DNA of 64,000 nucleotides from Methylophilus sp. 13. GTDB taxonomy: Bacteria; Pseudomonadota; Gammaproteobacteria; Burkholderiales; Methylophilaceae. The first letter of the stretch is position 1. The number at the start of each line of letters is the position of its first letter. The stretch lies in NCBI RefSeq assembly GCF_015354335.1, contig NZ_JADKYR010000002.1, forward strand, positions 620,001 to 684,000, read 5' to 3'. The notes beneath the pieces were generated by a model. That model was not told the DNA's origin, searched no databases, and saw nothing but the letters and a program-made list of their open reading frames with translations. The position numbers and the translations under genes were made by a program. This document shows positions 26,353 to 46,469 of this stretch, piece by piece.

Positions 26353-26397
26353 ATACTAGGAGAGTTCGCTCATGCAATCACTACGTTAATTGACGTA
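26353..26397 (-). promoter_or_regulatory. Regulator dyad and promoter of the NCS1-kinase gene
   Basis: The plus strand shows CTACGTTAATTGACGTAG (26381-26398), an 18-bp palindrome with one mismatched pair. Read on the minus strand, TACGTCAATTAACGTA is followed by 23 nt and then TAGTAT (26353-26358), a -10-like hexamer about 58 bp before the ATG. No good -35 is present, as expected for an activated promoter. The same dyad-23 nt-hexamer layout recurs before fmdC and urtC. Confidence 0.7.
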
Positions 26398-26482
26398 GAG
26401 CATTGCTGAGAAATGTGTTGAGTTGACCAAATCGCAAACATGACTCTTGAGATGCCATGTCATACAAGATCAAAATAAAGCT

Positions 26483-26508
26483 ACTCTCAACAGAATATAT
26501 TTGAGAGT
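26483..26508. terminator. AT-rich hairpin in the gap before the helicase gene
   Basis: Stem ACTCTCAA / TTGAGAGT (8 bp, 10-nt loop) followed by ATTTAATTAAT on the plus strand. The surrounding 26400-26719 is very AT-rich, without genes, and marks the left border of a low-GC accessory stretch. The hairpin could be a terminator or a regulator site. Confidence 0.4.
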
Positions 26509-26719
26509 ATTTAATTAATCAGTAAAAGAATTAGGAAATGTAATTCATGAGATTGCTGACTTATAGCTATATTAGGTTTTATTAGAATATTCAGTGAAAA
26601 ATATATCTCTCTGAAGCCATTAAGTAAAAATACAAACTAACCAACAAAATATCCTTTTCAAAAAGTGAAGGGTATCGTTCAAGAAATATACCGAATTTTA
26701 ATGGGTGAAAGTCAAAGAA

Positions 26720-29098
26720 ATGATTGTGTACTCAGCGACAAAAAGAAAATTTCTAGAAGACGTCAGATCAAATAACATTGCTGAAATAATCGAGAGCGAG
26801 GTATTAAGAAAACTGAATAGAAACTCCCCTAGAAATGAGAGATTGTCCTGGGAAAACTCTCTGCAATATATGTCTCAAATCTTATGGGACGAAGATATAC
26901 CATCTTCCGCAGGAGTAGCTATTGAATACAATCTACCCATGACTAACAGACGGGTAGACTTCATTCTTACGGGCAAAGATTCAGAACACAATGACACAGC
27001 CATTATTGTTGAGCTTAAACAGTGGCAGGAAGTAGAAAAAACAAACAAAGACGCTATCGTTAAAACGTGGTTGCAGCGAGGAGAGGTAGAAACAAATCAC
27101 CCGTCTTATCAAGCATGGTCATATGCGGCGCTAATCGAAGACTATAACGAAACAGTTCGTAAAGAGTCCATTCGTTTGCAACCATGCGCCTATCTACACA
27201 ACCTCAGATCGAGATCAGTTATAGATGATCCTTTTTATTCGAGCCATACAGAAAAAGCCCCAGTATTTGTATCGCAAGATGCAATTAAGCTTTCTGAGTT
27301 TCTCAAGCGCTATGTAAAGTATGGTGATAGCAATAACATCATGTATCGCATCGAACATGGTGTTATCAAACCATCAAAAAATTTGGCTGATGCTTTAGCT
27401 TCGATGTTGTCAGGTAATTCAGAGTTTTTGATGATTGATGAGCAAAAGTTGGTCTATGAAACCGCTCTGGATTTAGCGCACAAAGCTCAGCACGGTAAGA
27501 AGCAAACGTTGATAGTAAAAGGTGGGCCAGGCACAGGTAAATCCGTAGTTGCTATCAATTTATTAGGCGAGCTTACAAATCGCGAAATGCTCGTGCAGTA
27601 TGTTTCAAAAAATGCAGCCCCTCGTGCAGTATTCAAGGAAAAGCTGACAGGTTCTAAAAAGAAAACTCAAATTGATCAAATGTTCAAAGGCTCTGGCGCT
27701 TATATCGAAGTGGAGCAGAATCAATTTGCAGCATTAATCATTGACGAGGCTCATCGACTTAATGAAAAGTCGGGGCTTTACAGCAATCTTGGTGAGAACC
27801 AAATCAAAGAGCTCATAGAGGCATCAAAGTTTAATGTTTTTTTCATTGACGAAGCTCAAAGAGTAACTTTAAGTGATATTGGCACCATTAACGAGATAAA
27901 GCTTTGGGCGAGTAAACTTGGCTCTACTGTTACTGAACTCGAACTAGTTTCTCAATTTAGATGCAATGGTTCCGATGGCTATCTGGCATGGGTTGATAAC
28001 AGTCTACAAATTAGAGAAACAGCTAATCCCACGCTTGAAGATATTGATTACGAAGTCAAAGTATTTGATGACCCTAATCAATTAAGAGCAGCCATTTTTG
28101 ATAAAAATAGAGCTTCTAATAAAGCTCGTTTAGTAGCTGGGTATTGTTGGGATTGGGCGAGCAAAAAAGATAAATCAGCTTTCGATATTATTATTCCAGA
28201 GTTTAGTTTCAAAGCTCAATGGAATTTAGACGAAGATGGAAGTTTATGGTTGATAGCTGAGCATTCAGTAGAGCAAATCGGGTGCATTCATACTTGCCAA
28301 GGATTAGAGCTTGATTACGTGGGTGTGATTATTGGTAATGACTTTGTCATCCGTGATGGGGTTGCAATAACAGATGCCGGAAAACGTTCTTCAAACGACA
28401 AGTCGATACGTGGCTATAAAACCCTATTAAAAAATGAACCCAATAAAGCCAAACAACTAACTAGCGAAATCATAAAGAACACTTATCGAACATTAATGAC
28501 GCGAGGGCAAAAGGGTTGTTTTATCTTTTGTACTGACAAAGAAACACGAGAGTACTTTAAACAAATAGCAGATCGACAAAATCAAGTTAAAGATGATTTA
28601 ACTACAGAATATCCTGGTTTGGATTTAAACGTTGTTCCATTTGAGCAAGCGAACCCCTTTAAAACGCACGTTCCAATTTATGACTTGCAAGCTGCGGCTG
28701 GTGGATTTAGTGACTTTCAAACAATCGAAGGTTGTCAGTGGGTCGAGTTACCAAGCCACATCAATGTTAGCGAAGGTATGTTTGTAATGCAGGTTATTGG
28801 CGAGTCAATGAATCGCCGCATACCTAATGGTTCATGGTGTTTGTTTAAAGCGAATCCGGGTGGCACTCGAAATGGAAAAGTTGTCCTTGTTCAGCATCGA
28901 GAAATTGAAGACCCTGATCATGGCGGTGAATACACTGTTAAGGTCTATCAAAGTGAAAAAACATTTGAAGATGGAATAGCCATAAATTCTCGAATATTAT
29001 TAAAACCAGACACTACTGCTTTTGGATATAAACCAATGATATTTAATGATGGATCAGAAAGTTTGCTAGTACTAGGTGAGTTTTTAGCAGTAATTTAA
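26720..29098 (+). CDS. PD-(D/E)XK nuclease - DUF2075 helicase - S24 peptidase-like fusion protein
   Basis: 792 residues from the ATG at 26720 (a GTG at 26705 would add five residues). Three parts are visible. The N-terminus (1-160) has a nuclease-like core with Asp80 in RVDFILTG and Glu98-x-Lys100 in IVELKQW. Residues about 255-640 form an SF1-type DUF2075 ATPase with Walker A GGPGTGKS (268-275), DEAH (342-345), a second FFIDEAQRV, QFRCNGSDGY and a C-terminal TLMTRGQKG. The last 130 residues resemble the LexA/S24 fold with Ser696 in GESMNRRIPNG and Lys741 in YTVKVY, a Ser-Lys dyad. The gene is AT-rich compared with its neighbours. DUF2075 proteins often occur in defence islands; a role in phage or plasmid defence with self-cleavage or repair-signal control is an inference. 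Confidence 0.88.
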   Translation: MIVYSATKRKFLEDVRSNNIAEIIESEVLRKLNRNSPRNERLSWENSLQYMSQILWDEDIPSSAGVAIEYNLPMTNRRVDFILTGKDSEHNDTAIIVELKQWQEVEKTNKDAIVKTWLQRGEVETNHPSYQAWSYAALIEDYNETVRKESIRLQPCAYLHNLRSRSVIDDPFYSSHTEKAPVFVSQDAIKLSEFLKRYVKYGDSNNIMYRIEHGVIKPSKNLADALASMLSGNSEFLMIDEQKLVYETALDLAHKAQHGKKQTLIVKGGPGTGKSVVAINLLGELTNREMLVQYVSKNAAPRAVFKEKLTGSKKKTQIDQMFKGSGAYIEVEQNQFAALIIDEAHRLNEKSGLYSNLGENQIKELIEASKFNVFFIDEAQRVTLSDIGTINEIKLWASKLGSTVTELELVSQFRCNGSDGYLAWVDNSLQIRETANPTLEDIDYEVKVFDDPNQLRAAIFDKNRASNKARLVAGYCWDWASKKDKSAFDIIIPEFSFKAQWNLDEDGSLWLIAEHSVEQIGCIHTCQGLELDYVGVIIGNDFVIRDGVAITDAGKRSSNDKSIRGYKTLLKNEPNKAKQLTSEIIKNTYRTLMTRGQKGCFIFCTDKETREYFKQIADRQNQVKDDLTTEYPGLDLNVVPFEQANPFKTHVPIYDLQAAAGGFSDFQTIEGCQWVELPSHINVSEGMFVMQVIGESMNRRIPNGSWCLFKANPGGTRNGKVVLVQHREIEDPDHGGEYTVKVYQSEKTFEDGIAINSRILLKPDTTAFGYKPMIFNDGSESLLVLGEFLAVI

Positions 29099-29300
29099 TA
29101 GCACTAATTTTTCGCGGTGAACTAATCGAAGCGAGGTGTTAAATTGAAAATAAGCCAACGACTTGATTTACGAAAAACTCGAATCGATGGGATCGGTTTT
29201 GATTGATGGCAAGGATGTATCGGAAATGAAGAGGAATGCAGATATGAGAAAAGGCGCATGAATTACTCGATATATGGCGGTGTGGCCGTTGATTTTGATC
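29099..29300 (+). pseudogene. Fragmentary reading frames between the helicase gene and vapB
   Basis: A stop-terminated frame ends at about 29261 with ESMGSVLIDGKDVSEMKRN and then ADMRKGA. Its TGA overlaps an ATG (ATGA) that opens a 16-residue frame, MNYSIYGGVAVDFDPF. Neither is a complete gene, but the ATGA overlap and protein-like composition suggest leftovers of a two-gene operon. I do not recognise the family. Confidence 0.35.
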
Positions 29301-29307
29301 CATTTTA

Positions 29308-29330
29308 ATATATACTTAAAATATATACTT
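29308..29330 (+). promoter_or_regulatory. vapBC promoter/operator with tandem repeat
   Basis: ATATATACTT occurs twice (29308-29317 and 29321-29330), a direct repeat with 13-bp period just upstream of vapB. Toxin-antitoxin operons are normally autoregulated by the antitoxin binding repeats at this place. The repeat also contains -10-like TATACT. Confidence 0.6.
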
Positions 29331-29344
29331 CAAAGGTGGCAATG

Positions 29345-32838: not shown

Positions 32839-33495
32839 TTAAAGCATCAGGCCTTGTTTTTCGATGAACCTGACAATTTCTTCTAATCCCTGCCCCGTCT
32901 TCAGGTTGCTGAAAATAAACGGTTTCTCGCCGCGCATCTTCTTGGCGTCACGGTCCATCACTTCGAGCGAGGCACCCACCATAGGCGCCAGGTCTATCTT
33001 GTTGATCACGAGCAAATCAGATTTGGTAATACCGGGGCCACCTTTGCGCGGGATTTTCTCCCCGGCGGCGACATCAATCACGTAAATCGTCAAATCAGAC
33101 AATTCGGGGCTGAAGGTGGCGGCCAGGTTATCGCCACCGCTTTCGACAAACACGATATCCAGCGTCTGAAAACGTTTGCTCAGTTGCATCACCGCTTCGA
33201 GGTTCATGGAGGCGTCTTCGCGGATGGCGGTGTGCGGGCAGCCACCGGTTTCGACGCCGATGATGCGTTCTGGCACCAGCGCTTCGTTGCGGGTTAAAAA
33301 TTCGGCATCTTCTTTGGTATAAATATCGTTGGTGACCACGGCAATGTTATATACCTCGCGCAAACGCTGGCAGAGCGCCAGGGTCAGCGCGGTTTTGCCG
33401 GAGCCCACCGGGCCACCAATGCCCACGCGCAGCGGCTCTTTGAACTCGGTGACTTCAGGCATGGGGCTATCAAATTGGGTATGTATTTTCATCAT
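32839..33495 (-). CDS. ureG: Urease accessory GTPase UreG
   Basis: 218 residues. P-loop GPVGSGKT (28-35), the nickel-binding CPH motif in [26 protein letters not shown] and the guanine-specificity motif NKIDL. UreG binds Ni and GTP and delivers the metal to apo-urease in complex with UreF and UreD/H. Slightly longer N-terminus than Klebsiella UreG (205). Last of the accessory genes before hupE. Confidence 0.97.
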
Positions 33496-33521
33496 GGGTT
33501 AAACGCTCTTCAACAAACAGG

Positions 33522-34220
33522 TTATGACCTGAACAAACGGCTGTACTGGGTCTCGTGCAAACAGCCCGCGATACTCAGCAATGGGTTAAAGTTACTCACC
33601 TCTTCATCTTGCAGGGCCATCGCGCTGGCGACCACTTGCGGCAATTGTTCACCTAGCGCCAGTAAAATGGTCTGCCCGGCCACTTGGCCCAGCGGCACGG
33701 TTTTCATGGCGGCGCTGGCCTGATTTTCACACCAGCCCCAGGCGTAGCCATGCAACATATGCTCAGGCGCAATCTGCCAGTGTTGGGCGATGGCGGCATA
33801 CATTGTGGGAAATGCCGGGCTCGTCAGGGTGTTGAGTTTTGCCACCAACGCAGGTGGCGTGTCTTTGAGCTCGGACAGCAGGCGACGCAGTGAATAGCCC
33901 ATTTGTCGGGTTTCAGCATAGCCTTCGGCGGTATCGCGGCCCGCCTGGTAAAAATCATCCCACGCCTGCACTTGCGCCAGGTCATCGGCTTGCCAGGCTT
34001 GATACAAGCGGTAGAGCACCGGCAACTCGAAGCGCGCCTGATACACCTGCAAGCTATCGCCTATCCAGGCTTGTGCGCTCGGCACATCCTTGACCTGGCC
34101 GGATTCAATCGCCCACTCCAGCCCCTGCGAGTAACAATAGGCCCCCACAGGGAGCAACGGGCTGGCCAGCTGCAGCAAGCGACTGAGGGCCAGACTCGCG
34201 TTTAATGGGCTGACACTCAT
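33522..34220 (-). CDS. ureF: Urease accessory protein UreF
   Basis: 232 residues, all-helical. [24 protein letters not shown] is the diagnostic N-terminal motif (broken here for length: [12 protein letters not shown], then [12 protein letters not shown]). RRLLSELKD and [15 protein letters not shown] follow. UreF bridges UreD/H and UreG and gates GTPase-driven nickel insertion. Overlaps ureE by 4 bp. Confidence 0.95.
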
Positions 34221-34717
34221 TCGCTGCCCTGCCCGCTTTTCACGCGTGGGCGCAACGCTTGCAAACTGTCCTCATCATGGCCATGCCGGTGACCGCCACC
34301 ATAGGCCCCGGCCTCCGGCTCAAACGGCGCATGGACTTCACTCACTTGCATACCCAGCCCAAGCAACATGTCACGTAACACATAATCTTGCTCCAGCCGC
34401 AGCCAGCCATCGCCAATTTGCAGTGGCACATGGCGGTTGCCCAGATGATAGGCGGCGCGCATCAAGTCGCGCGGCGTCGGTGCAATGACGTTATACACCG
34501 GCTCCTGCGCCGCCACGATCTGCACCACCACACTGCCGTCTTCAGACTGGATCAAATCACCCCCGCGCAGAATCAGGCCGCGCGATAAAAACAGCGCCGC
34601 TTCACGGCCAGAAGCCAAGGTCACGCGCAAACGGCTTTTCTGGCGCTGGTCAAACGGCAGCTCCAGCGTGTCGTCAATATGGCCACTGAGGGCAATGCGT
34701 TCGGTTAAATGAATCAT
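34217..34717 (-). CDS. ureE: Urease accessory nickel metallochaperone UreE
   Basis: 166 residues. N-terminal peptide-binding domain ([20 protein letters not shown]), central metal-binding domain with [12 protein letters not shown], in which the conserved His binds Ni, and a short His-rich tail ([11 protein letters not shown]). The tail is modest compared with Klebsiella UreE. UreE passes nickel to UreG. Its stop overlaps ureF. Confidence 0.95.
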
Positions 34718-34760
34718 TTTTTAATTTCAATCACAATCAATGTGCCCGCACAGCCCATGA

Positions 34761-36464
34761 TTAAAACAAGAAGTACCGCTGCGCCATTGGCAGCACTTCT
34801 GCCGGTTCACACACCAGCGGCATACCATCCGCCAGCACTTCATAGGTTTCCGGGTCCACGTCTATCTTGGGCATCCAGGTGTTATGCACCATGTCCGCTT
34901 TTTTGACGTCGCGCGTGCCTTTGACCGCCACCAATGGTTTTTGCAAACCGAGCGCCTTAATTTCGGGGTTCTCCAGCGCGGCTTGCGAGACAAAGGTCAG
35001 GGCGGTTTTGAGGCCGCCGCCATAGGCACCAAACATAGGGCGGTAATGCACGGGCTGTGGCGTCGGGATAGAGGCGTTAGGATCGCCCATCGCAGCCGCG
35101 GCAATCATGCCCCCCTTGATAATGGTAAATGGCTTCACGCCAAAGAAGGCGGGTTTCCACACCACCAGGTCAGCCAGCTTGCCGACCTCGATCGAGCCGA
35201 CCACATGACTGATACCATGTGTCAGCGCCGGGTTGATGGTGTATTTGGCGATATAGCGTTTGACGCGGAAGTTGTCGTTGCCCGCCGCATCTTCAGCCAA
35301 TGGCCCGCGCTGGATTTTCATTTTGTGCGCAGTTTGCCAGGTGCGGATAATCACTTCACCGACACGGCCCATGGCTTGCGAGTCGGATGACATCATGGAA
35401 AATGCGCCCAGGTCATGAAAAATATCTTCGGCAGCGATGGTCTCACGACGGATACGACTTTCGGCAAAGGCAATATCCTCGGCAATCGCCGGGTCCAGAT
35501 GGTGACACACCATGAGCATATCCAGATGCTCATCTATAGTGTTGACGGTAAATGGCCGCGTCGGGTTTGTAGAGGATGGCAGCACATTGGGTTGGCTGGC
35601 CGCTTTGATAATATCTGGCGCATGACCACCGCCTGCCCCTTCGGTATGAAAGGTATGGATGGTGCGACCCTTGAACGCGCCTATGGTGGTCTCGACAAAG
35701 CCGGACTCATTCAGGGTATCGGAGTGGATCGCAACCTGGATATCCATTTCATCCGCCACACTCAGGCAGTTATCAATCGCGGCGGGCGTAGTGCCCCAGT
35801 CTTCATGCAACTTGAGGCCAATGACCCCTGCGCGCACCTGCTCTCTGAGCGGTTCAGGCAGGCTGGCATTGCCCTTGCCTAAAAAGCCCAGGTTCATGGG
35901 GAAAGCATCGGCTGACTGCAACATACGGTGAATGTGCCAGGGGCCGGGCGTACAGGTAGTCGCAAAGGTGCCAGTCGCAGGCCCGGTGCCGCCGCCTATC
36001 ATGGTGGTGACGCCAGACATCAGGGCTTCTTCAATCTGTTGCGGGCAAATAAAGTGGATATGGGTATCAATGCCGCCGGCCGTGATGATCATGCCTTCGC
36101 CGGCAATCACCTCGGTGCCCGCGCCTATGGCAATGGTCACGCCGGGCTGGATATCCGGGTTGCCGGCTTTGCCGATGGCAGAAATATAACCGCCCTTGAT
36201 GCCGATGTCGGCCTTGACGATGCCCCAGTGGTCGATAATCAACGCGTTGGTGATGACGGTATCTGCCACTTCGGCGGCCAGCCCCTGGCCTTGGCCCATG
36301 CCGTCACGGATGACTTTGCCGCCACCAAACTTGACCTCTTCACCATAAATCGTGAAATCCTGTTCGACTTCTACCCACAGCTCGGTGTCGGCCAGCCTGA
36401 CCTTGTCACCCACGGTGGGGCCAAACATTTCCGCGTATGCGCGTTTATCCATTTTCACTGTCAT
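34761..36464 (-). CDS. ureC: Urease subunit alpha (catalytic)
   Basis: 567 residues, the normal length. Nickel ligands His135 and His137 (GIDTHIHFI), carbamylated Lys218 (GLKLHEDWG), His247 (VAIHSD), His273 and the flap Cys320-His321-His322 (MVCHHLD) are all present, so the enzyme should be active. Cytosolic; hydrolyses urea to ammonia and carbamate. Sits between ureB and ureE. The urtABCDE uptake genes just upstream deliver urea. Confidence 0.98.
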
Positions 36465-36473
36465 TGCTACTCC

Positions 36474-36782
36474 CTACTTTAAGGCGCCCATTACGCGGCC
36501 AGCAAAGCCATACACTTTGCGCGCACCCGCCAGTTTGACCAATTGCACGGTACGGGTCTGTCCCGGCTCAAACCGCACCGCAGTGCCCGCCGCAATATTC
36601 AGGCGATAGCCATAGGCCAGCGAACGATCAAACGACAAGGCATCGTTGGTTTCATAAAAATGGTAATGCGACCCGACCTGTATCGGCCGGTCGCCTGTAT
36701 TGGCCACATCCAGCGTGACCGTTTCACGCCCAACATTTAATTCGATGTCGCCTGCTGCGACCTGCATTTCGCCGGGAATCAT
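36474..36782 (-). CDS. ureB: Urease subunit beta
   Basis: 102 residues. [16 protein letters not shown], then [25 protein letters not shown], which is diagnostic for the beta subunit (split here), and [20 protein letters not shown]. Nine bp before ureC. The 200 bp between ureA and ureB are unusual for a ure operon and contain an inverted repeat. Confidence 0.97.
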
Positions 36783-36826
36783 ATGCTTTCCTCGTTTTTA
36801 ATATGCATTCTTAATACCTTTTTTTT

Positions 36827-36967
36827 ACCGCCGATACACGCAGATAAACGCCGATATTTTGTGCATCCGGTTTCGACAGAGTGTTTACATAAATCCACCA
36901 CTCCAAAACCAGTGCTGGCCAAAGATGATATTGATTTTATCGGCGTGCATCGGCGTTTATCGGCGGT
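36827..36967. repeat. Inverted repeat element between ureA and ureB
   Basis: Two 30-bp arms, 36827-36856 and 36938-36967, are imperfect reverse complements built from the unit ATCGGCG/CGCCGAT (CCGCCGATACACGCAG... against ...GTTTATCGGCGGT), separated by 81 bp. It is intergenic, within an operon, and absent from typical ure operons. Looks like a dispersed REP- or MITE-like insertion. The T-run before arm 1 could influence transcription. Confidence 0.8.
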
Positions 36968-36984
36968 TTAATTTTTTGTATCTA

Positions 36985-37287
36985 TTAGGGAATCGGATGA
37001 TGCACCGTCACCAGCTTGGTACCGTCTGGGAAGGTGGCTTCGATTTGTATATCCGGGATCATTTCCGGCACACCTTCCATCACCTCATCCCGTGATAACA
37101 GCGTGGTGCCGTAGCTCATCAGCTCGGCCACCGTTTTACCGTCACGCGCGCCCTCCATAATCGCTGCGGAAATAAACGCCACCGCCTCAGGATAATTCAG
37201 TTTCAAGCCACGCGCCTTGCGCCGTTCAGCCAGCAAGGCCGCGGTAAATATCAATAACTTGTCTTTTTCTCTGGGAGTTAATTCCAT
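36985..37287 (-). CDS. ureA: Urease subunit gamma
   Basis: 100 residues, the exact family length. [20 protein letters not shown], then [20 protein letters not shown], then [20 protein letters not shown], all characteristic. Follows ureD by 36 bp. Confidence 0.97.
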
Positions 37288-37323
37288 AGGATTGTTCTCT
37301 GACTATATTTTTGTGCACGCAGC

Positions 37324-38190
37324 TTATGTATTCCAAATCCGCGGTCTGACTGCGTCTCTTTGATAATACCATGGCCGCAGTAACTGCCAGCACTGCTCAA
37401 AATACTGCCTGGCCTGCTGTGAAGCCTGGCCAACATAACGGATACATAACACCTCTGGCAAGGCGGTCACGCCAGTATTGGCATCAGGCAAAGTAATCTC
37501 GCGACAAGCATGCAGCACCTCTGCGGGCACGGCCCCGGCACACACCAGAAAAGTACCGAACACCACCGACCCACCCAGGCCGACAGGACTGCATTTTAAG
37601 CGGTCATTGGCGTGCATGCGGGCACGCTCATTCCAGATCAAGCGGCCATCGCGACGGATGCGCTGATTGAGCTGATAGGCGCCGGTCTGCCAGCGTTCCT
37701 GCTGCGCCTGACGGCCCAAACAGACGATGTCCCACGTCGCAAGGGTGGCATCGCCCGCCAGATCAATCTCGGCATTAAAGCCAACTTCGGCGGCATCAAA
37801 CAGGATATTTTCTTGCGGCAGCCACTCGAGGCCACTGCCGGACGCCAGCTGAAAATGCAGCGTTTGTGTAGCCATCGTGCCATTGGCCTTATACCACTTG
37901 CCAGCGCCGGGGGTGGTCAGCAAGGCGTTTGCGCCCTCCCCCACGTGCACTTGCAAATGCAGCGCATCGCCCCCCGCCACCCCGCCAGGCGGATGCACAA
38001 TGACGGCATGGCAAATGGCTTCGCCTTCAGGATGCAGGCTTTTTTGCACCACCAACGGGCCTTTATGTAAGCGGTGTGCCAGGTAAGAACGTGCTTCACG
38101 TTTGGCAAAGCCAAGCTCTAATCGAGCTTGCCAGTGTTTTGTTGCGATCGTTTGCGCTAGCGATGGTGGCGTATGCTTTAAATCATCCAT
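37324..38190 (-). CDS. ureD: Urease accessory protein UreD (UreH)
   Basis: 288 residues. GPLVVQKSLHPEGEAICHAV, HPPGGVAGGDALHLQVHVG and LTTPGAGKWYKANG are the UreD signature blocks. It is the scaffold that binds apo-urease and, with UreF and UreG, routes nickel to the active site. It heads the ure genes and lies 130 bp downstream of urtE on the same strand, with a palindrome in between. Confidence 0.96.
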   Translation of the reverse strand: MDDLKHTPPSLAQTIATKHWQARLELGFAKREARSYLAHRLHKGPLVVQKSLHPEGEAICHAVIVHPPGGVAGGDALHLQVHVGEGANALLTTPGAGKWYKANGTMATQTLHFQLASGSGLEWLPQENILFDAAEVGFNAEIDLAGDATLATWDIVCLGRQAQQERWQTGAYQLNQRIRRDGRLIWNERARMHANDRLKCSPVGLGGSVVFGTFLVCAGAVPAEVLHACREITLPDANTGVTALPEVLCIRYVGQASQQARQYFEQCWQLLRPWYYQRDAVRPRIWNT

Positions 38191-38320: not shown

Positions 38321-39010
38321 TTATACAGACAAATAACTTTTTACCTTAGCTGCATCCACGTTGTCGCGCGTATCCTCATGGATAAAACGGCCTTTATCAA
38401 TGACGATAATACGGTCTGCCACTTCCATGGTGAAGCTCAACACCTGCTCGGAGACGATGATGGTGATTTCACGCATTTTGCGGATTTCGTTGAGCACCTT
38501 GGCGATGTCCTTGATGATGGACGGTTGAATCCCTTCGGTCGGCTCATCCAGCAGTAATACTTTTGGATTGGTCACCAGCGCGCGGGCAATCGCCAATTGC
38601 TGCTGCTGACCACCGGACAGGTTACCGCCCTTGCGTTTACGCATTTCATGCAACACCGGGAACAACGCGAAAATATCATCCGGGATCTCGCCTGAAGCCG
38701 ATTTTTCGAGACCGGTTTCGATGTTTTCCTGTACGGTCATGTTCGGAAAAATCCAGCGGCCTTGTGGCACATAGGCAAGCCCCTTCATGACGCGTTCATG
38801 GGTAGCTGAGCCTTGCAGATCTACCCCATCAACGGTGGCTTTGCTGGCTTTGCTTGGCAAAATGCCCATCAGTGATTTGAACAGCGTGGTTTTGCCCATG
38901 CCGTTGCGGCCCATGATGGCCAGTGTTTCGTTTTTGTTGGCTTTGAAATTCAGGCCATGAATGACCTGACTTTGGCCATAACTCACCTGCAAATTTTCAA
39001 TTTCAAACAT
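38321..39010 (-). CDS. urtE: Urea/amide ABC transporter ATP-binding protein UrtE
   Basis: 229 residues, LivF-like ATPase. Walker A GRNGMGKTT, signature LSGGQQQQLAIARAL and Walker B LLLDEPTEGIQPSI, where the TEGIQPSI sequence is specific to UrtE. With UrtD it powers the UrtBC membrane channel. Last urt gene, 28 bp after urtD. Confidence 0.95.
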   Translation of the reverse strand: MFEIENLQVSYGQSQVIHGLNFKANKNETLAIMGRNGMGKTTLFKSLMGILPSKASKATVDGVDLQGSATHERVMKGLAYVPQGRWIFPNMTVQENIETGLEKSASGEIPDDIFALFPVLHEMRKRKGGNLSGGQQQQLAIARALVTNPKVLLLDEPTEGIQPSIIKDIAKVLNEIRKMREITIIVSEQVLSFTMEVADRIIVIDKGRFIHEDTRDNVDAAKVKSYLSV

Positions 39011-39038: not shown

Positions 39039-39782
39039 TTAATGTCCTAAATACACTTCGATGACTTTTTCGTCTGCCTGGACTTTCTCCATCGGCCCCT
39101 CGGCGAGGATTTTGCCCTGATGCAGTACTGTCACCTTGTGCGCAATTTTCTTCACAAACTCCATATCGTGCTCGATCACAATCACCGAGCGGTTCTGGCA
39201 GATGCGGTTGAGCAAATCGGCGGTCTGGTCGCGCTCCTTGGCGCTCATGCCTGCCACAGGTTCATCCAGCATCAACAGCTCAGGCTCTTGCATGAGCAAC
39301 ATGCCGATTTCCAGCCATTGTTTCTGGCCGTGACTGAGCAAGGCAGATTCCATCTCAAGAAACTCGGTCAACATGATGTCTGCCGCCACTTTGCGTACAC
39401 GGTCTTCCACCTCTTGTGTCCGTTTGAAGGTCAGGCTGCCAAACACGCCGCGGCCTTTGGGGTAAGACACTTCCAGGTTTTGATAAACCGTGAGGTTTTC
39501 ATAAATGGACGGGTTCTGAAACTTGCGGCCGACGCCGGAACGCACAATTTCGTGCTCGGACAGCTTGGTCAACTCAGTGTTTTTAAACTTGATTGAACCG
39601 GCTGTAGATTTGGTTTTACCGCAAATCAGGTCCAGTACCGTGGTCTTGCCGGCGCCGTTAGGCCCCACCAGCACACGCAGTTCGTTTTTGTCGATATACA
39701 TGGTGAGGCTATCCACCGCTTTAAAGCCATCGAAGGAGACGGTCAGGTCTTCTACTGCCAAGACGAAGTCGGTATTACTCAT
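39039..39782 (-). CDS. urtD: Urea/amide ABC transporter ATP-binding protein UrtD
   Basis: 247 residues, LivG-like ATPase. Walker A GPNGAGKTT, signature-region LLSHGQKQWLEIGMLL (the SHGQKQWLEI variant is typical of UrtD) and Walker B LLMLDEPVAGMSAKE. Start overlaps urtC by 4 bp. Confidence 0.95.
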   Translation of the reverse strand: MSNTDFVLAVEDLTVSFDGFKAVDSLTMYIDKNELRVLVGPNGAGKTTVLDLICGKTKSTAGSIKFKNTELTKLSEHEIVRSGVGRKFQNPSIYENLTVYQNLEVSYPKGRGVFGSLTFKRTQEVEDRVRKVAADIMLTEFLEMESALLSHGQKQWLEIGMLLMQEPELLMLDEPVAGMSAKERDQTADLLNRICQNRSVIVIEHDMEFVKKIAHKVTVLHQGKILAEGPMEKVQADEKVIEVYLGH

Positions 39783-41068
39783 GCTTCTGCTCCTCTCATT
39801 TTATTGCTTTCGATCGCGGACGGCTGATCAGTGCTGGCCGCCGCTTTCTTACGTGATGTTTTCTTGACGCCCGCTTCGGTAGAGGTTACGGCGCCCGTGG
39901 TTGAAGATTCGGTAAGTACTGCTTGTGCTTCTACCTCAGAAGTACTTACCTCAGGCTTTTTTGCGTCAGCCTTGTCTTTGAACCAGCCATATTTGGTCGC
40001 CAGGTTGTCCCAGATACCAGCCAGGCCATTCGGGAAGAACATCACCACAGAGATAAACAGGCCACCCATGAGGAACAACCACAACTCTGGATAGGTCTCT
40101 GAAAACACGGTTTTACCATAGTTAACCAGCAAGGTGCCATATACGGCGCCAATCAGCGAGGCACGCCCACCCACGGCACAGAAAATCACCATTTCAATCG
40201 AAGGCACAATGCCGACAAAGGACGGTGACATAAAGCCCACTTGCAAGGTAAACATTGCACCACCAACGGCAGACATCATCGCCGCCAGGCAGAAGATAAA
40301 GATTTTAAAGTTGGAAACGTCGTAACCAGAGAAACGCACCCGCTCTTCTTTGTCGCGCATGGCTAGCAACAACATACCGAACTTGCTGCTCATGATGTAT
40401 TTGGACAGGAAGATCGCCCCGAACAGCAACAAACCATTCACGTAGTACAGGATATATTTGGCAGAATCGGTGCGAATATCCCAGCCCAACATGGTACGCA
40501 GGTCTGTCATGCCGTTCACACCACCGGTATAGCCTTGCTGACCAACAATCAGGATACTCAGGATCAGGGCAATCGCTTGCGTGATGATGGAGAAATACAC
40601 CCCACCCACACGACGCTTGAACATGGCATAACCGATGATGTAGGCAAAGATGGCTGGCACGGTGAGTACAGCAATCAGCGTGAAGGGTAAGCTTTTGAAC
40701 GGCTCCCAGAACCATGGCAAGGCCGTGAGCTGGTTCCAGTCCATAAAGTCAGGAATGCCTGGCGTAGACTGGATTTTAGTGGTTTCTGGATCGGACGCTT
40801 CCAGCTTGAGGAACATCGCCATCGCATAGCCCCCCAGACCGAAGAAGATGCCCTGGCCCAGACTCAAAATACCGCCATGCCCCCATAACATCACCAGGCC
40901 AACGGCGACAAAGGCGTAGGTCAGGTATTTACCAATCAGGTTCAGGCGGAAAATATCTACCCCCAGTGGCAACACGACGAAGATCAGGGCGGCCAGCGCA
41001 GCCAGGCCGATCACGCCTTCCTTACCACCCAGTACAGGACTGGCTTTCATTTTTTCCCATAATGTCAT
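39779..41068 (-). CDS. urtC: Urea/amide ABC transporter permease UrtC (FmdF-like), with long C-terminal tail
   Basis: 429 residues from the ATG at 41066-41068, 7 nt after GAGGAG. LivM-type permease with about nine helices and the loop SLGQGIFFGLGGYAMAMFLK near the start. The UrtC hallmark GRASLIGAVYGTLLVNYGKT is near residue 310. After the last helix a tail of about 65 residues, rich in Ala, Ser, Thr and Lys (EVSTSEVEAQ, KKTSRKKAAAS), is longer than usual. In Methylophilus methylotrophus the corresponding gene is fmdF. A separate promoter-like site lies just upstream. Confidence 0.95.
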   Translation of the reverse strand: MTLWEKMKASPVLGGKEGVIGLAALAALIFVVLPLGVDIFRLNLIGKYLTYAFVAVGLVMLWGHGGILSLGQGIFFGLGGYAMAMFLKLEASDPETTKIQSTPGIPDFMDWNQLTALPWFWEPFKSLPFTLIAVLTVPAIFAYIIGYAMFKRRVGGVYFSIITQAIALILSILIVGQQGYTGGVNGMTDLRTMLGWDIRTDSAKYILYYVNGLLLFGAIFLSKYIMSSKFGMLLLAMRDKEERVRFSGYDVSNFKIFIFCLAAMMSAVGGAMFTLQVGFMSPSFVGIVPSIEMVIFCAVGGRASLIGAVYGTLLVNYGKTVFSETYPELWLFLMGGLFISVVMFFPNGLAGIWDNLATKYGWFKDKADAKKPEVSTSEVEAQAVLTESSTTGAVTSTEAGVKKTSRKKAAASTDQPSAIESNKMRGAEA

Positions 41069-41094
41069 CAAAAATCTCCTCTATTGATGCGTTG

Positions 41095-41139
41095 ATTCTA
41101 GTGCGACAGATACAAAGTACTAATACGTCTATTTACTTA
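41095..41139 (-). promoter_or_regulatory. Regulator dyad and promoter candidate upstream of urtC
   Basis: On the minus strand TAAGTAAATAGACGTA (41124-41139) is followed by exactly 23 nt and TAGAAT (41095-41100), a good -10. The dyad is weaker than those before fmdC and the NCS1-kinase gene but keeps TA-G--AAT--ACGTA and the same spacing. It would start transcription about 20 nt before the urtC ATG. Confidence 0.6.
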
Positions 41140-41180: not shown

Positions 41181-42098
41181 TTATTTACGCAGTTTGGAGG
41201 CAAACAAACCTTCAGGTTTCATCATCAAGATTGTGACGATGGCAAGCAGCGTGGACACTTTACCCATGGAGCTGGTCATAAAGAACTGCAGGATAGATTG
41301 CGCCTGGGCGATGCCGAAGGCTGAGGCAATCGTCCCTACAATGCTGGCTGCACCGCCAAACACCACCACCATAAAGCTGTCTACGATGTAGAGCGTACCC
41401 GTGGTTGGCCCGGTAGAAGCAATCGTGGTAAACGCAGCGCCCGCGATCCCGGCAATGCCGCACCCCAAGGCAAAGGTCACACGGTCGACTTTTGCAGTGT
41501 TAATGCCCACTGCACCCGCCATGGTACGGTTCTGCACGGTGGCACGCACACGTAGGCCCCAGCGTGATTTATACATAAACATATATACACCGAGGGTCAC
41601 CAGCGCAGCCAGGGCCATCACAAAAACACCGTTGATCGGGATATCAATGTCTGGCGTCGGCTTGAAAGAGCCCAACATCCACTCAGGCAACTCGGCACTC
41701 ACCTCTTTGGCGCCAAAGGTAGAGCGGAAGATCTGCTGCATGACCAGGCTTAGCCCCCAGGTCGCCAGCAAGGTATCCAGTGGCCGCTTGTACAGGTGCC
41801 GGATCATGCCGTATTCAACAACATAGCCGACCGCGAATGCCAGCCCGAACGCAATGAGGATGGCAAACAAAAAATAGTAATTGGTGAAGCCGTAAGTGGC
41901 AGCCACCTTGGATAGCATGACTGTGGTATAGGCACCGATGGTCATAAACTCACCATGCGCCATGTTAATCACACCCATCTGCCCGAAAATAATCGCGAGA
42001 CCCAGTGCCATGAGTAGCAACACTGTAAACATGCTCAGGCCGGAAAAGCCTTGCATCACCACAATATTGCCTATATCTGCCATCGAATAACCAAACAT
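41181..42098 (-). CDS. urtB: Urea/amide ABC transporter permease UrtB (FmdE-like)
   Basis: 305 residues from the ATG at 42096-42098, 6 nt after AAGGAG (the frame runs to 42119). LivH-type permease with about eight helices, GQMGVINMAHGEFMTIGAY being the conserved loop, and IYMFMYKSRWGLRVRATVQN, of which SRWGLRVRA is typical for UrtB. Corresponds to fmdE of M. methylotrophus. 110 bp separate it from urtC, enough for a promoter. Confidence 0.95.
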   Translation of the reverse strand: MFGYSMADIGNIVVMQGFSGLSMFTVLLLMALGLAIIFGQMGVINMAHGEFMTIGAYTTVMLSKVAATYGFTNYYFLFAILIAFGLAFAVGYVVEYGMIRHLYKRPLDTLLATWGLSLVMQQIFRSTFGAKEVSAELPEWMLGSFKPTPDIDIPINGVFVMALAALVTLGVYMFMYKSRWGLRVRATVQNRTMAGAVGINTAKVDRVTFALGCGIAGIAGAAFTTIASTGPTTGTLYIVDSFMVVVFGGAASIVGTIASAFGIAQAQSILQFFMTSSMGKVSTLLAIVTILMMKPEGLFASKLRK

Positions 42099-42178
42099 AT
42101 CGGTCTCCTTAAAATGCAACTTCTCAAAATTGCTGACTGCTTGAAATTGTTTACAACTTGAATGCTGTTTGCGCCAAA

Positions 42179-42228: not shown

Positions 42229-43467
42229 TTATTGATAGCCTTTTGGAAATGGATCAGGTTTGATGTAATCAGAGGTGTATACCACTTTGGCCTGGCCATC
42301 TTTACCCCACTGACCAATACGCAGCTTGGTGGTCAGGTGGTGGTTGGCTTCCACAGTAACAGGGCCTTCTGGTGCATCTTTGAAAGTGTAGCCTGGCAAT
42401 GCTGCTTGCACTTTGTCTACATCGAAGCTACCTGCGCGCTCAACGGCTGCCTTGTACAACCATGGACCCAGGTAAGCAGCTTGTGTCACGTCGCCGATCA
42501 CAGACTTCTCACCCCAGCGTTTTTTGAACGCCTCTACAAATTTCTTGTTAGCCTCATTGTCTTGAGACTGGAAGTATTTCATCGCAGAGTAGAAACCAGC
42601 CAGGTTTTCACCGCCGATACCCAACACTTCGTCCTCGGTCACGGAGATCGTCAACATGGTTTGTTTGCTGGAGTTCAAACCAGCAGCGTTCAATTGTTTG
42701 AACCAAGCCACGTTACTGCCGCCCACCACCGCTGCGTAGATCACGTCAGGTTTTTTCAGTTTGATTTTGTTGATCACAGAACCGAACTGGGTGTCACCCA
42801 AGGCGATGTATTCTTCACCCACCACAGTGCCATGCAAGTGTTGCTCGATGTGTTTACGGGCAATCTTCATGGAAGTACGTGGCCAGATGTAGTCAGAACC
42901 AATCAGGTAGAAAGTCTTGGCTTTTTTCTCTTTAGCGATCCAGTCCAACCCTGCCAGAATTTGTTGTGTCGCTTCTTGACCGGTGTAGAACACGTTTTTG
43001 GATTGCTCCAGACCTTCGTAGAAGGTTGGGTAGAACAACAAGCCATTGTCTTTTTCAAACACTGGCAAAGCCGCTTTACGTGAAGCAGACGTCCAGCAGC
43101 CCATCACAGCAGCCACTTTGTCTTTTTCCAGCAGTTTCTTCGCTTTTTCTGCGAAAGTTGGCCAGTCAGACGCACCGTCTTCCTGGATAATTTCAATCTT
43201 GCGGCCCAGAATACCGCCCATGGCGTTGATCTGTTCGATCGCCAGCTTTTCAGCCTGGATAGAACCGGTTTCACTAATCGCCATCGTGCCGGTGGCAGAG
43301 TGCAGAATACCTACTTTTACTGTGGAGTCAGTCACTGCCAAGCCAGTCGTATTCACTTTTGCAGTCGGATAATCCGCTGCAAATGCATGACCGCTGATAA
43401 GGCCTGCGGCCATCATGGCACCGACCAATGCGCCCTTCATAAAACCGCGTCTGTTTGAGGTACTCAT
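42229..43467 (-). CDS. urtA: Amide/urea-binding protein of the ABC transporter (UrtA/FmdD-like)
   Basis: 412 residues. Twin-arginine signal (SNRRGFMKGALVGAMM, cleavage near HAFA) and a type I periplasmic-binding fold starting VKVGILHSATGTMAISETGS, then EIIQEDGASDW. This matches UrtA and FmdD, the M. methylotrophus receptor for short-chain amides and urea. AAGGAG precedes the ATG. Position right after fmdCAB favours amides as well as urea as ligands. Confidence 0.95.
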   Translation of the reverse strand: MSTSNRRGFMKGALVGAMMAAGLISGHAFAADYPTAKVNTTGLAVTDSTVKVGILHSATGTMAISETGSIQAEKLAIEQINAMGGILGRKIEIIQEDGASDWPTFAEKAKKLLEKDKVAAVMGCWTSASRKAALPVFEKDNGLLFYPTFYEGLEQSKNVFYTGQEATQQILAGLDWIAKEKKAKTFYLIGSDYIWPRTSMKIARKHIEQHLHGTVVGEEYIALGDTQFGSVINKIKLKKPDVIYAAVVGGSNVAWFKQLNAAGLNSSKQTMLTISVTEDEVLGIGGENLAGFYSAMKYFQSQDNEANKKFVEAFKKRWGEKSVIGDVTQAAYLGPWLYKAAVERAGSFDVDKVQAALPGYTFKDAPEGPVTVEANHHLTTKLRIGQWGKDGQAKVVYTSDYIKPDPFPKGYQ

Positions 43468-43528: not shown

Positions 43529-43867
43529 TTAATGCCCGACCATCCACGGCCGTGCCGTTTTCTTGGTCTGCATTTGCAAGCCCGGTTTACCTGTATCCTG
43601 GTTGACCGGCGGCTTGGTTTTACACGTGTGTGATCCGGTACAGCCACAGCTGGAACGTCTGGCTGTACGCGGCTCGTTAGCAGATTTCTCGTTACGTTCA
43701 TGCGCAGACCGTTGCATTTTGTCCATGATGGCCAGTTTGGGCGCAGATAAAATCCGTGGACTCTCTGCCCCGCAACAATCGCAGTAGGCAGGCAAACTCG
43801 ACTCACTCATTTTGCGTAGCGCAGTAAACACGCCACAACTGTCACATTCATATTCGTAAAGAGGCAT
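43529..43867 (-). CDS. fmdB: FmdB family zinc-ribbon protein
   Basis: 112 residues. MPLYEYECDSCGVFTALRKM, then PAYCDCCGAESPRILSAP, is the CxxC...CxxC zinc ribbon of FmdB. The C-terminal half is hydrophilic with a CGCTGSHTC cluster. FmdB was proposed as a regulator of formamidase expression in M. methylotrophus; its biochemical role is not firmly known. Sits between fmdA and urtA. Confidence 0.92.
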   Translation of the reverse strand: MPLYEYECDSCGVFTALRKMSESSLPAYCDCCGAESPRILSAPKLAIMDKMQRSAHERNEKSANEPRTARRSSCGCTGSHTCKTKPPVNQDTGKPGLQMQTKKTARPWMVGH

Positions 43868-43921: not shown

Positions 43922-45145
43922 TTATGTGCAAGTGGACACATCGATGCCTGGCGGCACCATGATCTTCGGTCCATCCGCGTTAGGTCGGATATCAAACTCA
44001 AAGATCTCGGTCGGGACCCACAAGGTGGCACAAGCGTTAGGGATATCGACGATGCCACTGATATGCCCCTCTACCGGCGCAGTCCCCAGGATGGATACCG
44101 CTTGTTCGCCGCTGTAACCAAATTTTTTCAGGTACTCAATCGCGTTGAGGCAAGCCTGGCGGTAGGCAATATGCACATCCAGGTAATGTTGCTTGCCGGC
44201 TTCGTCAACCGAAATGCCTTCAAAAATCATGTAATCACGGTAAGTCGGTGTAATCGGGCTGGGCTGGAACACAGGGTTTTTAATCCCGTATTTCTTTACA
44301 CCATCCTTGATCAGGCCCACTTTGATATCGAGGTAACCGGCCATTTCAATCGCACCGCAGAAAGTGATTTCACCGTCGCCTTGTGAGAAGTGCAGGTCAC
44401 CCATGGAGAGACCGCCATCCTTCACATAGACCGGGAAGTACACCCTTGAGCCTTTGGTCAGGTTCTTGATATCGCAGTTACCGCCGTGATCACGTGGTGG
44501 CACGGTACGCGCGCCTTCGGCTGCTGCTTTTTTGGCAGCGTCGCCACTCAAACGGCCCATGACGGCAGATTGTGAAGTCGGAGGGCAAGCCAGTGGCGGG
44601 ACACGATCCGGATCCGTTGCAATCAGGTCGCCTTCACGCTTGTTCCAGGTTTCGAGCAGTTCTTTGGATGGCAGGCAACCAATCAGACCCGGGTGCATAA
44701 TGCCGGCATACCGCACCTTAGGCACATGACGGGAAGTGGTATACACGCCGTGGAAATCCCAGATGGTTTTGCTCGCTTCAGGGAAGTGGTCGGTCAGAAA
44801 GCCCCCACCATTTTCCTTGGCAAACAAACCGTTAAAGCCCCATTGATATTCATCAAAAGTACCCACATCCAGAATATCCACCACCATCAAGTCACCCGGC
44901 TCAGCACCTTCCACGCCAATCGGGCCACTCAGGTAGTGCACCTGGGTTAGATCAACGTCACGCACATCATTGGCGCTATCGTTATTACCGATCTGACCAC
45001 CTGTCCAGTCCATACACTCAACACGGAACTCATCCCCTGGCTTGACCATGGCAATCATCGGCAGGTCGGGGTGCCAGCGGTTATGAATCTGGCCGTCCTG
45101 CTCCCATGGTTTTTTATCCAAATCCAACTTCACTATTGTTTTCAT
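43922..45145 (-). CDS. fmdA: Formamidase
   Basis: 407 residues from the ATG at 45143-45145, downstream of AAGGAG; a GTG/ATG 9 nt earlier overlaps that site. FmdA/AmdA amidohydrolase family: DWTGGQIGNNDSANDV, GPIGVEGAEPGDLMVVDI, HGVYTTSRHVPKV, GGNCDIKNLTKGSRVYFPV and GDLHFSQGDGEITFCGAIE, the last two holding the conserved metal- and substrate-region residues (each run shortened here). Cytosolic; hydrolyses formamide to ammonia and formate, so it yields nitrogen and a C1 unit. 41 bp after fmdC. Confidence 0.97.
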   Translation of the reverse strand: MKTIVKLDLDKKPWEQDGQIHNRWHPDLPMIAMVKPGDEFRVECMDWTGGQIGNNDSANDVRDVDLTQVHYLSGPIGVEGAEPGDLMVVDILDVGTFDEYQWGFNGLFAKENGGGFLTDHFPEASKTIWDFHGVYTTSRHVPKVRYAGIMHPGLIGCLPSKELLETWNKREGDLIATDPDRVPPLACPPTSQSAVMGRLSGDAAKKAAAEGARTVPPRDHGGNCDIKNLTKGSRVYFPVYVKDGGLSMGDLHFSQGDGEITFCGAIEMAGYLDIKVGLIKDGVKKYGIKNPVFQPSPITPTYRDYMIFEGISVDEAGKQHYLDVHIAYRQACLNAIEYLKKFGYSGEQAVSILGTAPVEGHISGIVDIPNACATLWVPTEIFEFDIRPNADGPKIMVPPGIDVSTCT

Positions 45146-45186
45146 TACGCTCATCTCCTTTGTGGGAAAGGGTTATAAGGTGTTGA

Positions 45187-46371
45187 TTAGAACTGCATCT
45201 GCAGGGCGACTCGGACGAAATCTTTATTAGAAGCCGTCGCGGTATCTTCTTTGCCGTAGGTGGCTGTCAAAGTCGCGTTGTAAGGTGCAATCACGTAATT
45301 GGTGCCCACTTCAAAGCGTTTGCTTGCGCCACCGCCGGTGGTATTGGTAAAAGCTGTCGTTGTCGAGTTGTAGCTTGTCACACCATCGGCGTTAAATTTC
45401 TGGTAACGAATGATAGGCATGAATTTGCCCCAGCCTACTTGTTCCTGGAACAGGTAGCCTAAGCCAGCGGAGTATGCATGACCTTGCTCACCTTTAAATA
45501 CACCATCGGTGCCGTAGTAGTAGTAAGCAGCTTCAGCAGAAAAGGTACCAGGACCCACATCTTTTTTCTCTAACAGGAAGTCCACGCTGTAAGCTTTGTA
45601 ATCACCCACCACATTGGTAGGGCTGACAACACCATCTTTTTTGTAACGTCCAGCAACCCCGATGGCAAGAATGTCTTTAGCACCAAAGTAGTTGCCTGTA
45701 CCGTAGTAGCCTGGTTCTGCATCCCAGAAATCGTATTGCACACGACCGGCATACATCAGGTTATCTTTATGTGTTGAAGATTGTGACTGCGCGCCAACCC
45801 CACTAAAACGGAAAATCTGGTTACCTTCAAAGGCACCGAATGAAACATTAAGATGATCCTCAAGAAAGCTGGTAACCATAGCCACACCGTCATCACGACC
45901 AATCACACCACCGTTCCAGCCATAACGTGAAGCAATGTTGGCCCAGTAGCCACCACCCATGGAGTAGTAAGGACCTGCCATGTTGGCACGGTCACTCGGA
46001 GACAGGAAACGACCTGCCCAGATGGCCACTTCAGGGGTTAACTGAAATTGCACGTTGGCATCAATCACTTCAACATTAGAGCCTGCAGAGCCGCCACCTG
46101 ATTTTTCAGTGTTCAGCATGCCTTTGATATACTTGTTAAAAGAACCAGAGATATAAATACGAGCACTATCCAGAGCGAAGTCGTTTGAACGATCGCTGCC
46201 TTGATTCACAGCGTCCTCTTTTGAGTTATAGCTGCTGATAAAGCCAAACCCAAGGCCAATATATTTATCTTCGCCAAAGTTGATTGTTGCACCCGCATTT
46301 GCCAGTTGTGCACCCAGGCCACAAGCCATTGCTACCGCAGTATGCAAGGCACATTTTTTCAAGTTCATCAT
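45187..46371 (-). CDS. fmdC: Outer-membrane porin FmdC
   Basis: 394 residues. Signal peptide with cleavage after LANA, then beta-strand-rich sequence (INFGEDKYIGLGFGFISSY) and a C-terminal aromatic (VRVALQMQF) for BAM recognition. In M. methylotrophus fmdC precedes fmdA and is proposed to carry short amides and urea across the outer membrane. First gene of the amide/urea run; a dyad-type promoter lies about 83 bp upstream. The start may be the ATG at 46371 or at 46368. Confidence 0.92.
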   Translation of the reverse strand: MMNLKKCALHTAVAMACGLGAQLANAGATINFGEDKYIGLGFGFISSYNSKEDAVNQGSDRSNDFALDSARIYISGSFNKYIKGMLNTEKSGGGSAGSNVEVIDANVQFQLTPEVAIWAGRFLSPSDRANMAGPYYSMGGGYWANIASRYGWNGGVIGRDDGVAMVTSFLEDHLNVSFGAFEGNQIFRFSGVGAQSQSSTHKDNLMYAGRVQYDFWDAEPGYYGTGNYFGAKDILAIGVAGRYKKDGVVSPTNVVGDYKAYSVDFLLEKKDVGPGTFSAEAAYYYYGTDGVFKGEQGHAYSAGLGYLFQEQVGWGKFMPIIRYQKFNADGVTSYNSTTTAFTNTTGGGASKRFEVGTNYVIAPYNATLTATYGKEDTATASNKDFVRVALQMQF

Positions 46372-46424
46372 CTAAGTTCCCTTTCTCGTTAAATTCAAAT
46401 CACAGTTGATCAAAACTTGCGCTC

Positions 46425-46469
46425 AGCTTAACGAGAGGGGGGTGTAGGACAAATACGTCAATTTGCGTA
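46425..46469 (-). promoter_or_regulatory. Regulator dyad and promoter of the fmd-urt operon
   Basis: Minus-strand TACGCAAATTGACGTA (46454-46469), 23 nt, then TAAGCT (46425-46430), about 55 bp before the fmdC ATG. The dyad centre falls near -43 and no -35 is visible, fitting a LuxR-family class II activator. The plus-strand lipoprotein gene starts 60 bp to the right, so the site may affect both directions. Confidence 0.7.

Follow-up and report, generated by a model that had tools for sequence, protein, structure and literature searches.

Histidine kinases in which a transporter-like membrane part is fused to a kinase controlling nutrient-use genes are known from the CbrA/CbrB and CrbS/CrbR systems, the SLC5-STAC kinases (PMC13022988 for CbrA), and the fold of a nitrogen-compound transporter likewise serves as kinase input in an ammonium sensor kinase of Kuenenia stuttgartiensis (PMC5764959). 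Here, we analyze a 64,000-nucleotide stretch of Methylophilus sp. 13 (contig NZ_JADKYR010000002.1, positions 620,001 to 684,000; hereafter the window, in whose numbering coordinates are given) that encodes a hybrid histidine kinase with a transporter-like membrane part, a response regulator of the LuxR type, and genes for the use of amides and urea. We propose, with a probability of roughly 0.86, that the kinase and regulator activate the amide/urea genes, and here also themselves, through class II promoters. Both LuxR-type class II control and transporter-kinase fusions (CbrA, CrbS and the ammonium-transporter kinase) are already known. Unlike in CbrA and CrbS, the membrane part in the window is closest to NCS1 proteins (CodB, Mhp1) and not to SLC5, a cysteine-rich segment lies between membrane part and kinase, and the neighbors are amide/urea genes; no STAC domain was among the Pfam scan results for the kinase, where no search aimed at STAC was made. 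The transporter family also differs from that of the Kuenenia kinase, and the ligand would differ as well.

For the target genes, the fmdCABDEF cluster of Methylophilus methylotrophus comprises the same kind of genes and comes from the same genus as a near relative of this locus, L156 (Methylophilus sp. QUAN). Its fmd genes are induced by formamide and urea and repressed by ammonia, and in Methylophilus formamide and urea induce formamidase and the uptake of short-chain amides and urea (PMC10781810). That report names only a putative regulator, whereas we propose a two-component system and an operator. AmiC/AmiR likewise controls amidase genes in response to amides, but works by antitermination and is no two-component system. 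In the Pseudomonas amiE-fmdAB-urt locus, according to a 2026 paper, amiC and amiR are absent and fmdB is named as the positive regulator of formamidase (PMC13209695). In the open-access literature we saw none that assigns this two-component system or operator to the amide/urea pathway, and found no relevant report of NCS1-kinase fusions.

The kinase-regulator pair and three promoters are arranged as follows:
21898..22830, minus strand: response regulator, 310 amino acids, with a receiver domain (residues 8-119), a middle part without match and a LuxR/GerE helix-turn-helix domain (residues 249-303)
22827..26294, minus strand: hybrid histidine kinase, 1155 amino acids, with an NCS1-like membrane part, a cysteine-rich segment, HisKA, HATPase_c and a receiver domain
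24636-24749, minus strand: cysteine-rich, zinc-finger-like segment between membrane part and kinase (kinase residues about 516-553)
26353..26358, minus strand: -10-like hexamer TAGTAT of the kinase promoter, 23 nucleotides after the dyad
26382..26397, minus strand: kinase-regulator dyad TACGTCAATTAACGTA, upstream of the kinase-regulator genes
41095..41100, minus strand: -10-like hexamer TAGAAT of the urtC promoter
41124..41139, minus strand: imperfect urtC dyad TAAGTAAATAGACGTA, upstream of urtC, a genus-specific internal promoter
46425..46430, minus strand: -10-like hexamer TAAGCT of the fmdC promoter
46454..46469, minus strand: fmdC dyad TACGCAAATTGACGTA, between fmdC and the divergent gene 46530-47156

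An earlier note on this DNA had placed the three dyads here, each exactly 23 nucleotides (N23) from TAGTAT, TAAGCT or TAGAAT, and we verified every position and spacing, together with the genes behind the sites: the kinase-regulator pair, the porin-like gene fmdC heading a formamidase/urea-transporter/urease run, and urtC. The three dyad-N23-TANNNT promoters are real and, as a set, are confirmed to lie beyond chance. A pattern written from the three sites had 0 matches in 100 shuffles of the window, but a pattern built from its own sites cannot judge chance, and a composite pattern and independent tests were therefore used. The bare dyad (TACGTN6ACGTA, at most 3 mismatches) is not enriched, occurring 103 times in the window against 116 expected, so that the special feature is the dyad with its fixed spacing and -10 box.

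When the hexamer is set at -12 to -7, the dyad is centered at about -43.5 and adjoins RNA polymerase. The lux box in class II promoters of the LuxR/NarL type is centered near -42.5, and a dyad near -43 without a -35 box is the geometry of activators of this class. The promoters in the window share this layout, with an activator dyad at N23 just upstream of a -10 box and no -35 box: neither a sigma-70 consensus promoter nor a -35 box was found at the fmdC or urtC site, the kinase promoter lying outside the scanned region. The class II architecture proposed earlier is thus borne out at fmdC and urtC. Compared with LuxR/NarL class II promoters, the promoters described here have their own half-site, TACGYMA, with a preferred N23, and a single dyad shows a two-sided geometry in two plasmid loci and several Methylophilaceae genomes. 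Sigma-54 promoters were considered as an explanation and rejected, with one loose match only, at 45550, inside fmdC.

The composite pattern, TACGYMAWWTKRCGTA-N23-TANNNT, was scanned against the strain's own 3.11 Mb genome with the reversed pattern as control. At no more than 1 mismatch there are only three matches, namely the fmdC promoter, the kinase promoter, and a site outside the window (G000:C1:679554) that precedes an aliphatic amidase gene (NF009802, 702.4 bits, cut-off 427). Derived from the promoters of a urea/formamide operon and a sensor, the pattern therefore retrieved a further amide gene. An amidase gene also stands behind the site in G004 (L104), and in a genome of another family (L249) a 0-mismatch site precedes an open reading frame 79% identical to the amidase of our strain. 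The regulon first suggested, fmd and urt, was thus too narrow: both are linked to the site, and amiE belongs as well. Allowing 2 mismatches gives 6 matches against 4 for the control, so that the case for the urtC site, which has 2 mismatches, comes from conservation and not from pattern strength; at 3 mismatches the loosened pattern does not exceed its control (21 versus 41). The suggested genome-wide search for random matches of the same spacing is therefore favorable at the strict setting and shows no excess at the loose one. Apart from the window sites and L004, the dyad matches with 0-1 mismatch in this genome show no TANNNT at N23 on either side (15 of 49 places examined), and we take them as chance.

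Further sites were noted alongside these. At L051 (G000:C9:99724-99768), TACGTCATATGACGAG-N23-TATGAT precedes a gene of the cyclopropane-synthase type (PF02353, 314.9 bits), and near-identical copies of such dyads with differing spacers occur in several genomes of the genus; L051 is a possible further target, and with 2 mismatches chance is possible too. A gene for a proteasome-type peptidase (PF00227, 33.8 bits), which may be Anbu-like, has an exact site in front of it (L096 1678; G030:C15:117677). Directly behind the sites in G036, G013, G012 (C1:400), G009 (C1:689), G004 (C7) and G028 (C48), no pathway gene was recognized.

Conservation was evaluated in 26 loci with kinase orthologs (L016-L041, own locus included; matches beyond L041 to the kinase domain only were left out). 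A dyad followed by exact N23 and TANNNT lies upstream of the kinase in 22 of the 26. L039 and L040 have the dyad without TANNNT at N23, and no dyad was found upstream of the kinase in L034 and L041. In the genome of L034 (G030) the kinase lies behind the urease genes in the same orientation and may therefore be co-read with them; in that of L041 (G039) the gap between the regulator gene and a urtA-like gene contains a dyad. As the earlier note required of orthologous promoters, the fmdC site is conserved across the family. At urtC, for which 30 of the 51 loci found were examined, dyad, N23 and TANNNT are present in 14 of 30: 14 of 17 in the genus of the window and 0 of 13 in other genera, one of which, left uncounted, shows a poor dyad followed by N23-TANNNT. 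The fmdC dyad of G012, G001, G006, G016, G030, G003 and others has N23-TANNNT on both sides.

The distribution of the site follows that of the kinase. Among 187 family genomes, 50 contain the kinase and 60 contain the site at up to 1 mismatch, and the site is found in 50 of 50 genomes with the kinase versus 10 of 137 without it (Fisher 8e-36); the reversed pattern, counted by eye, occurs in 30 genomes (12 of 50 and 18 of 137, respectively). Kinase and urtC are both present in 49 family genomes, G178 having the kinase only, and G006 and G157 urtC only. Among 300 genomes of the order, the kinase is present in 49, urtA in 121 and a 0-mismatch site in 17, with 2 control matches in all (counted by eye). 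Here, the site occurs in 14 of 49 genomes with the kinase, in 1 of 75 with urtA and no kinase, and in 2 of 176 with neither; as judged by the first two proportions, it goes with the regulator rather than with the operon alone. For urtA-containing genomes outside the family, the values are 9 of 41 with and 1 of 75 without the kinase (p = 3e-4).

We also analyzed loci encoding the membrane part of the kinase, using the best 80 of 582 places, mainly in Burkholderiales, Rhodocyclales and Pseudomonas, with up to 10 kb on each side of the kinase; some loci are short contigs. The kinase has a urt, fmd, amiE or urease gene nearby in 67 of the 80, and in 61 of 74 outside Methylophilaceae. A position matrix trained on Methylophilaceae only (dyad score at least 13; six Methylophilaceae loci, L156-L158, L161, L162 and L165, dropped) finds the dyad in other families upstream of urtA (19/33), fmdC (3/3), fmdA (4/7) and the kinase (8/72), and not upstream of urtC (0/20) or the response regulator (0/72), with 27 hits in 4000 random windows. 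TANNNT stands at N23 in 14 of 35 distinct dyads of other families; pooled over the remaining spacings from 14 to 35, it occurs once. The scan of relatives proposed at the outset thus recovered the dyad before urtA and fmdC in other families, with N23 preferred.

A five-gene urea/amide ATP-binding cassette transporter set followed by a formamidase-type gene stands divergently to the pair on plasmids of Burkholderia, Paraburkholderia, Chelatococcus, Azospirillum and Methylobacterium. All six plasmid loci scanned (five annotated records and a sixth without annotation) have a dyad at a score of at least 13, and in L258 and L263 N23-TANNNT flanks the single dyad between urtA and the kinase in both directions. 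The membrane part also has relatives in 342 Klebsiella plasmid records, about 52% identical among the matches listed. In the Pseudomonas-type loci L192, L207, L211 and L217, two tandem dyads 22 base pairs apart precede urtA, the nearer of which has CATTCT or CATCCT and not TANNNT (CATCCT at N24 in L217). At L102 4277, L199 9635, L259 9789 and L260 9721, TTGCTGCNNCGC directly follows the dyad on the urtA side and could belong to the operator or form a second conserved element.

The regulator carries a receiver domain (PF00072, 96.2 bits) and a C-terminal GerE/LuxR helix-turn-helix domain (PF00196, 63.6 bits), and its gene starts before the kinase gene has ended. We compared recognition helices and half-sites, leaving out L199 (no helix-turn-helix match) and L214 (whose dyad belongs to a second kinase copy). 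A T at half-site position 5 accompanies the SPRT-type helix in 11 of 13 loci and the SP[AM]T type in 0 of 7 (p = 5e-4). This covariation fits coevolution of regulator and operator. From the conserved dyad and its co-occurrence with the kinase, which are indirect pointers, the protein encoded at 21898-22830 is predicted to bind the dyads as a phosphorylated dimer.

With HisKA, HATPase_c and a receiver domain in one chain, the sensor is a hybrid histidine kinase. Its membrane part matched 0 Pfam families at E<=10 and 0 NCBIfam families at E<=1, had no PDB sequence match (profile, E<=5), and gave one weak tblastn match, to a plasmid gene annotated as cytosine permease (E 1e-6, 25.5% over 36% of the query). 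As the searches in Pfam, NCBIfam and PDB were uninformative, we turned to fold comparison. The predicted structure (predicted local distance difference test score 72.0, predicted template-modeling (TM) score 0.71) has CodB and Mhp1 as its first five PDB structure matches, with TM-scores normalized by target of 0.67-0.77 and 16-19% identity, and SLC5-type structures (CHT1, DUR3, sialic acid symporter) come below the NCS1 ones, from rank 13 on; because all share the LeuT-like fold, the choice of NCS1 over SLC5 rests on rank and TM-score. The label of NCS1-permease/kinase given earlier is right as to fold, but no Pfam model supports it. In the cysteine-rich segment most cysteines are invariant across relatives, and its weak resemblance to a FYVE zinc finger in PDB (E 1.4) suggests, no more, that it binds metal.

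Based on the observed sites, their spacing, conservation and co-occurrence with the kinase, the gene neighborhood and the predicted fold, we propose the following mechanism. The kinase (22827-26294), with the fold of NCS1 solute symporters in its membrane part, would be a sensor of available short-chain amides and/or urea, and its kinase and receiver domains would control phosphorylation of the LuxR-type regulator encoded with it (21898-22830). Once phosphorylated, the regulator would bind the dyad (about TACGYMA-N2-TKRCGTA) as a dimer centered near -43 and activate sigma-70 promoters that have a -10 box and no -35 box. Predicted targets are the fmdC promoter, heading fmdCAB-urtABCDE and probably the urease genes too, the internal promoter before urtC, and the aliphatic amidase gene elsewhere in the genome; the kinase-regulator promoter as a target of its own product would provide positive feedback in Methylophilaceae. 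The central idea of the earlier note, that a class II operator ties the pair to fmd and urt, is supported by conservation, co-occurrence of site and kinase, the N23 preference elsewhere, gene adjacency, the amidase target and the recognition helix.

Several observations weigh against this proposal. Kinase and operon travel together in the family, so that co-occurrence there cannot separate regulator from operon; the separation comes from the smaller order-level test only, where 35 of the 49 genomes with the kinase lack a 0-mismatch site. G334 and G370 (L239, L240, L251, L252) each have two exact sites, before genes of unknown role, and neither kinase nor urtA. The kinase match in G178 is a fragment, and the single site there, which resembles one in the kinase-free G183, is probably unrelated. 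Thirteen of the 80 kinase loci, some of them short contigs, have no pathway gene within the stretch, and in four of the six plasmid loci the dyad lacks N23-TANNNT on either side. Outside the family, no dyad reaches the threshold in 64 of 72 kinase-upstream, 42 of 44 ureA-upstream and 4 of 4 amiE-upstream windows; an own dyad at the kinase, as the autoregulation predicted earlier would need, is thus usual in Methylophilaceae (22/26) but, judged from these upstream regions, self-regulation of the kinase is not universal. Of the two predicted entry points into fmd/urt, fmdC is supported, whereas the urtC site is weak, confined to the genus of the window and, by pattern alone, not distinguishable from chance; taken by itself it may have arisen by chance and then been retained. 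The association between helix and half-site is confounded by ancestry. Finally, dyad binding, phosphorylation, the direction of regulation and the ligand are what we infer from the observations above.

These points leave room for other explanations. Were the dyad bound by a different factor, whether another LuxR-type protein or a global nitrogen regulator, the kinase-regulator pair would be merely one of its targets. The exact sites of G334 and G370 and the sites at up to 1 mismatch in 10 of 137 kinase-free family genomes are compatible with such a factor. The last, however, are no commoner than matches to the reversed control (18/137), and the two among the ten that have urtC, G006 and G157, are assemblies 88 and 79% complete, in which the kinase may be technically missing. 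Since sites also track the kinase rather than urtA (14/49 versus 1/75), and half-site and recognition helix vary together, we consider another factor unlikely. It is still less likely that the dyad is a repressor site, or that the regulator represses from it until an amide signal relieves repression: a dyad at about -43 with fixed N23 and no -35 box at fmdC and urtC has the geometry of class II activation, and one spacing preferred in different families is nothing that a repressor would require.

FmdB as the regulator of these promoters is suggested by the published descriptions, a putative positive regulator being among the fmdCABDEF products (PMC10781810) and fmdB being said to encode a positive regulator of formamidase (PMC13209695). 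We regard this as very improbable, as L168, L198 and L218 have a dyad-N23 promoter before urt while neither fmdA nor fmdB was found, a weak argument given that the scan covered up to 10 kb and that a short, diverged fmdB could escape. As for chance matches combined with shared ancestry of short promoters, the loosened pattern is indeed unenriched in the strain's own genome (21 versus 41 for the control at up to 3 mismatches), but the N23 peak in other families despite different spacers and the retrieval of the amidase gene make this explanation almost negligible, and effectively exclude a chance origin for the fmdC, kinase and amiE sites. We therefore retain activation by the kinase-regulator pair through class II promoters.

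The amide/urea genes of the window, with the urease genes ureA to ureG identified by protein family searches, and the divergent gene are listed below:
32839..38190, minus strand: urease gene run, downstream and in the same direction
32839-33495, minus strand: ureG
33522-34220, minus strand: ureF
34217-34717, minus strand: ureE
34761-36464, minus strand: ureC
36474-36782, minus strand: ureB
36985-37287, minus strand: ureA
37324-38190, minus strand: ureD
38321..39010, minus strand: urtE (TIGR03410 over cut-off)
39039..39782, minus strand: urtD (TIGR03411 over cut-off)
39779..41071, minus strand: urtC (TIGR03408 over cut-off)
41181..42119, minus strand: urtB (TIGR03409 over cut-off)
42229..43467, minus strand: urtA, substrate-binding protein of the urea ATP-binding cassette transporter (TIGR03407 over cut-off)
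43529..43867, minus strand: fmdB-like zinc-ribbon gene (PF09723 over cut-off; fmdB name by position)
43922..45154, minus strand: fmdA, formamidase (NF045496, 799.9 bits, cut-off 500)
45187..46371, minus strand: fmdC, porin-like (match to porin ExtI 88.8 bits, below the cut-off of 150; named by position)
46530..47156, plus strand: divergent gene of unknown function with a lipoprotein-like start and no Pfam match, sharing the fmdC dyad

The naming of fmdC by position follows the fmdCABDEF cluster order (PMC10781810). The urease genes would be transcribed from the fmdC promoter. Between the kinase promoter and the urease genes, a block at 26705-31917 holds Schlafen-group helicase, VapC-type toxin and leucine-rich-repeat-kinase genes. 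In L156, the kinase match begins about 0.9 kb after the match of the HupE/UreJ-type gene ending the urease run, compared with about 5.8 kb in the window, and the block therefore looks inserted.

A candidate regulator, operator, promoter geometry and regulon can now be named for the urt-fmd-ami set that recurs across Proteobacteria, each part of which is directly testable in a methanol-growing bacterium, and a further transporter family is suggested for the short list of transporter-kinase fusions. We would give even odds to a broader proposal, in which a widespread system built from an NCS1-type domain, a zinc-finger-like cysteine-rich segment and a hybrid kinase senses formamide, short-chain amides or urea directly, possibly during transport, and, through one operator of fixed geometry, generally activates the scavenging of amides and urea in Beta-, Alpha- and Gammaproteobacteria. 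If true, direct sensing of amides and urea by an NCS1-type domain would represent a new class of transporter-receptor in bacteria.

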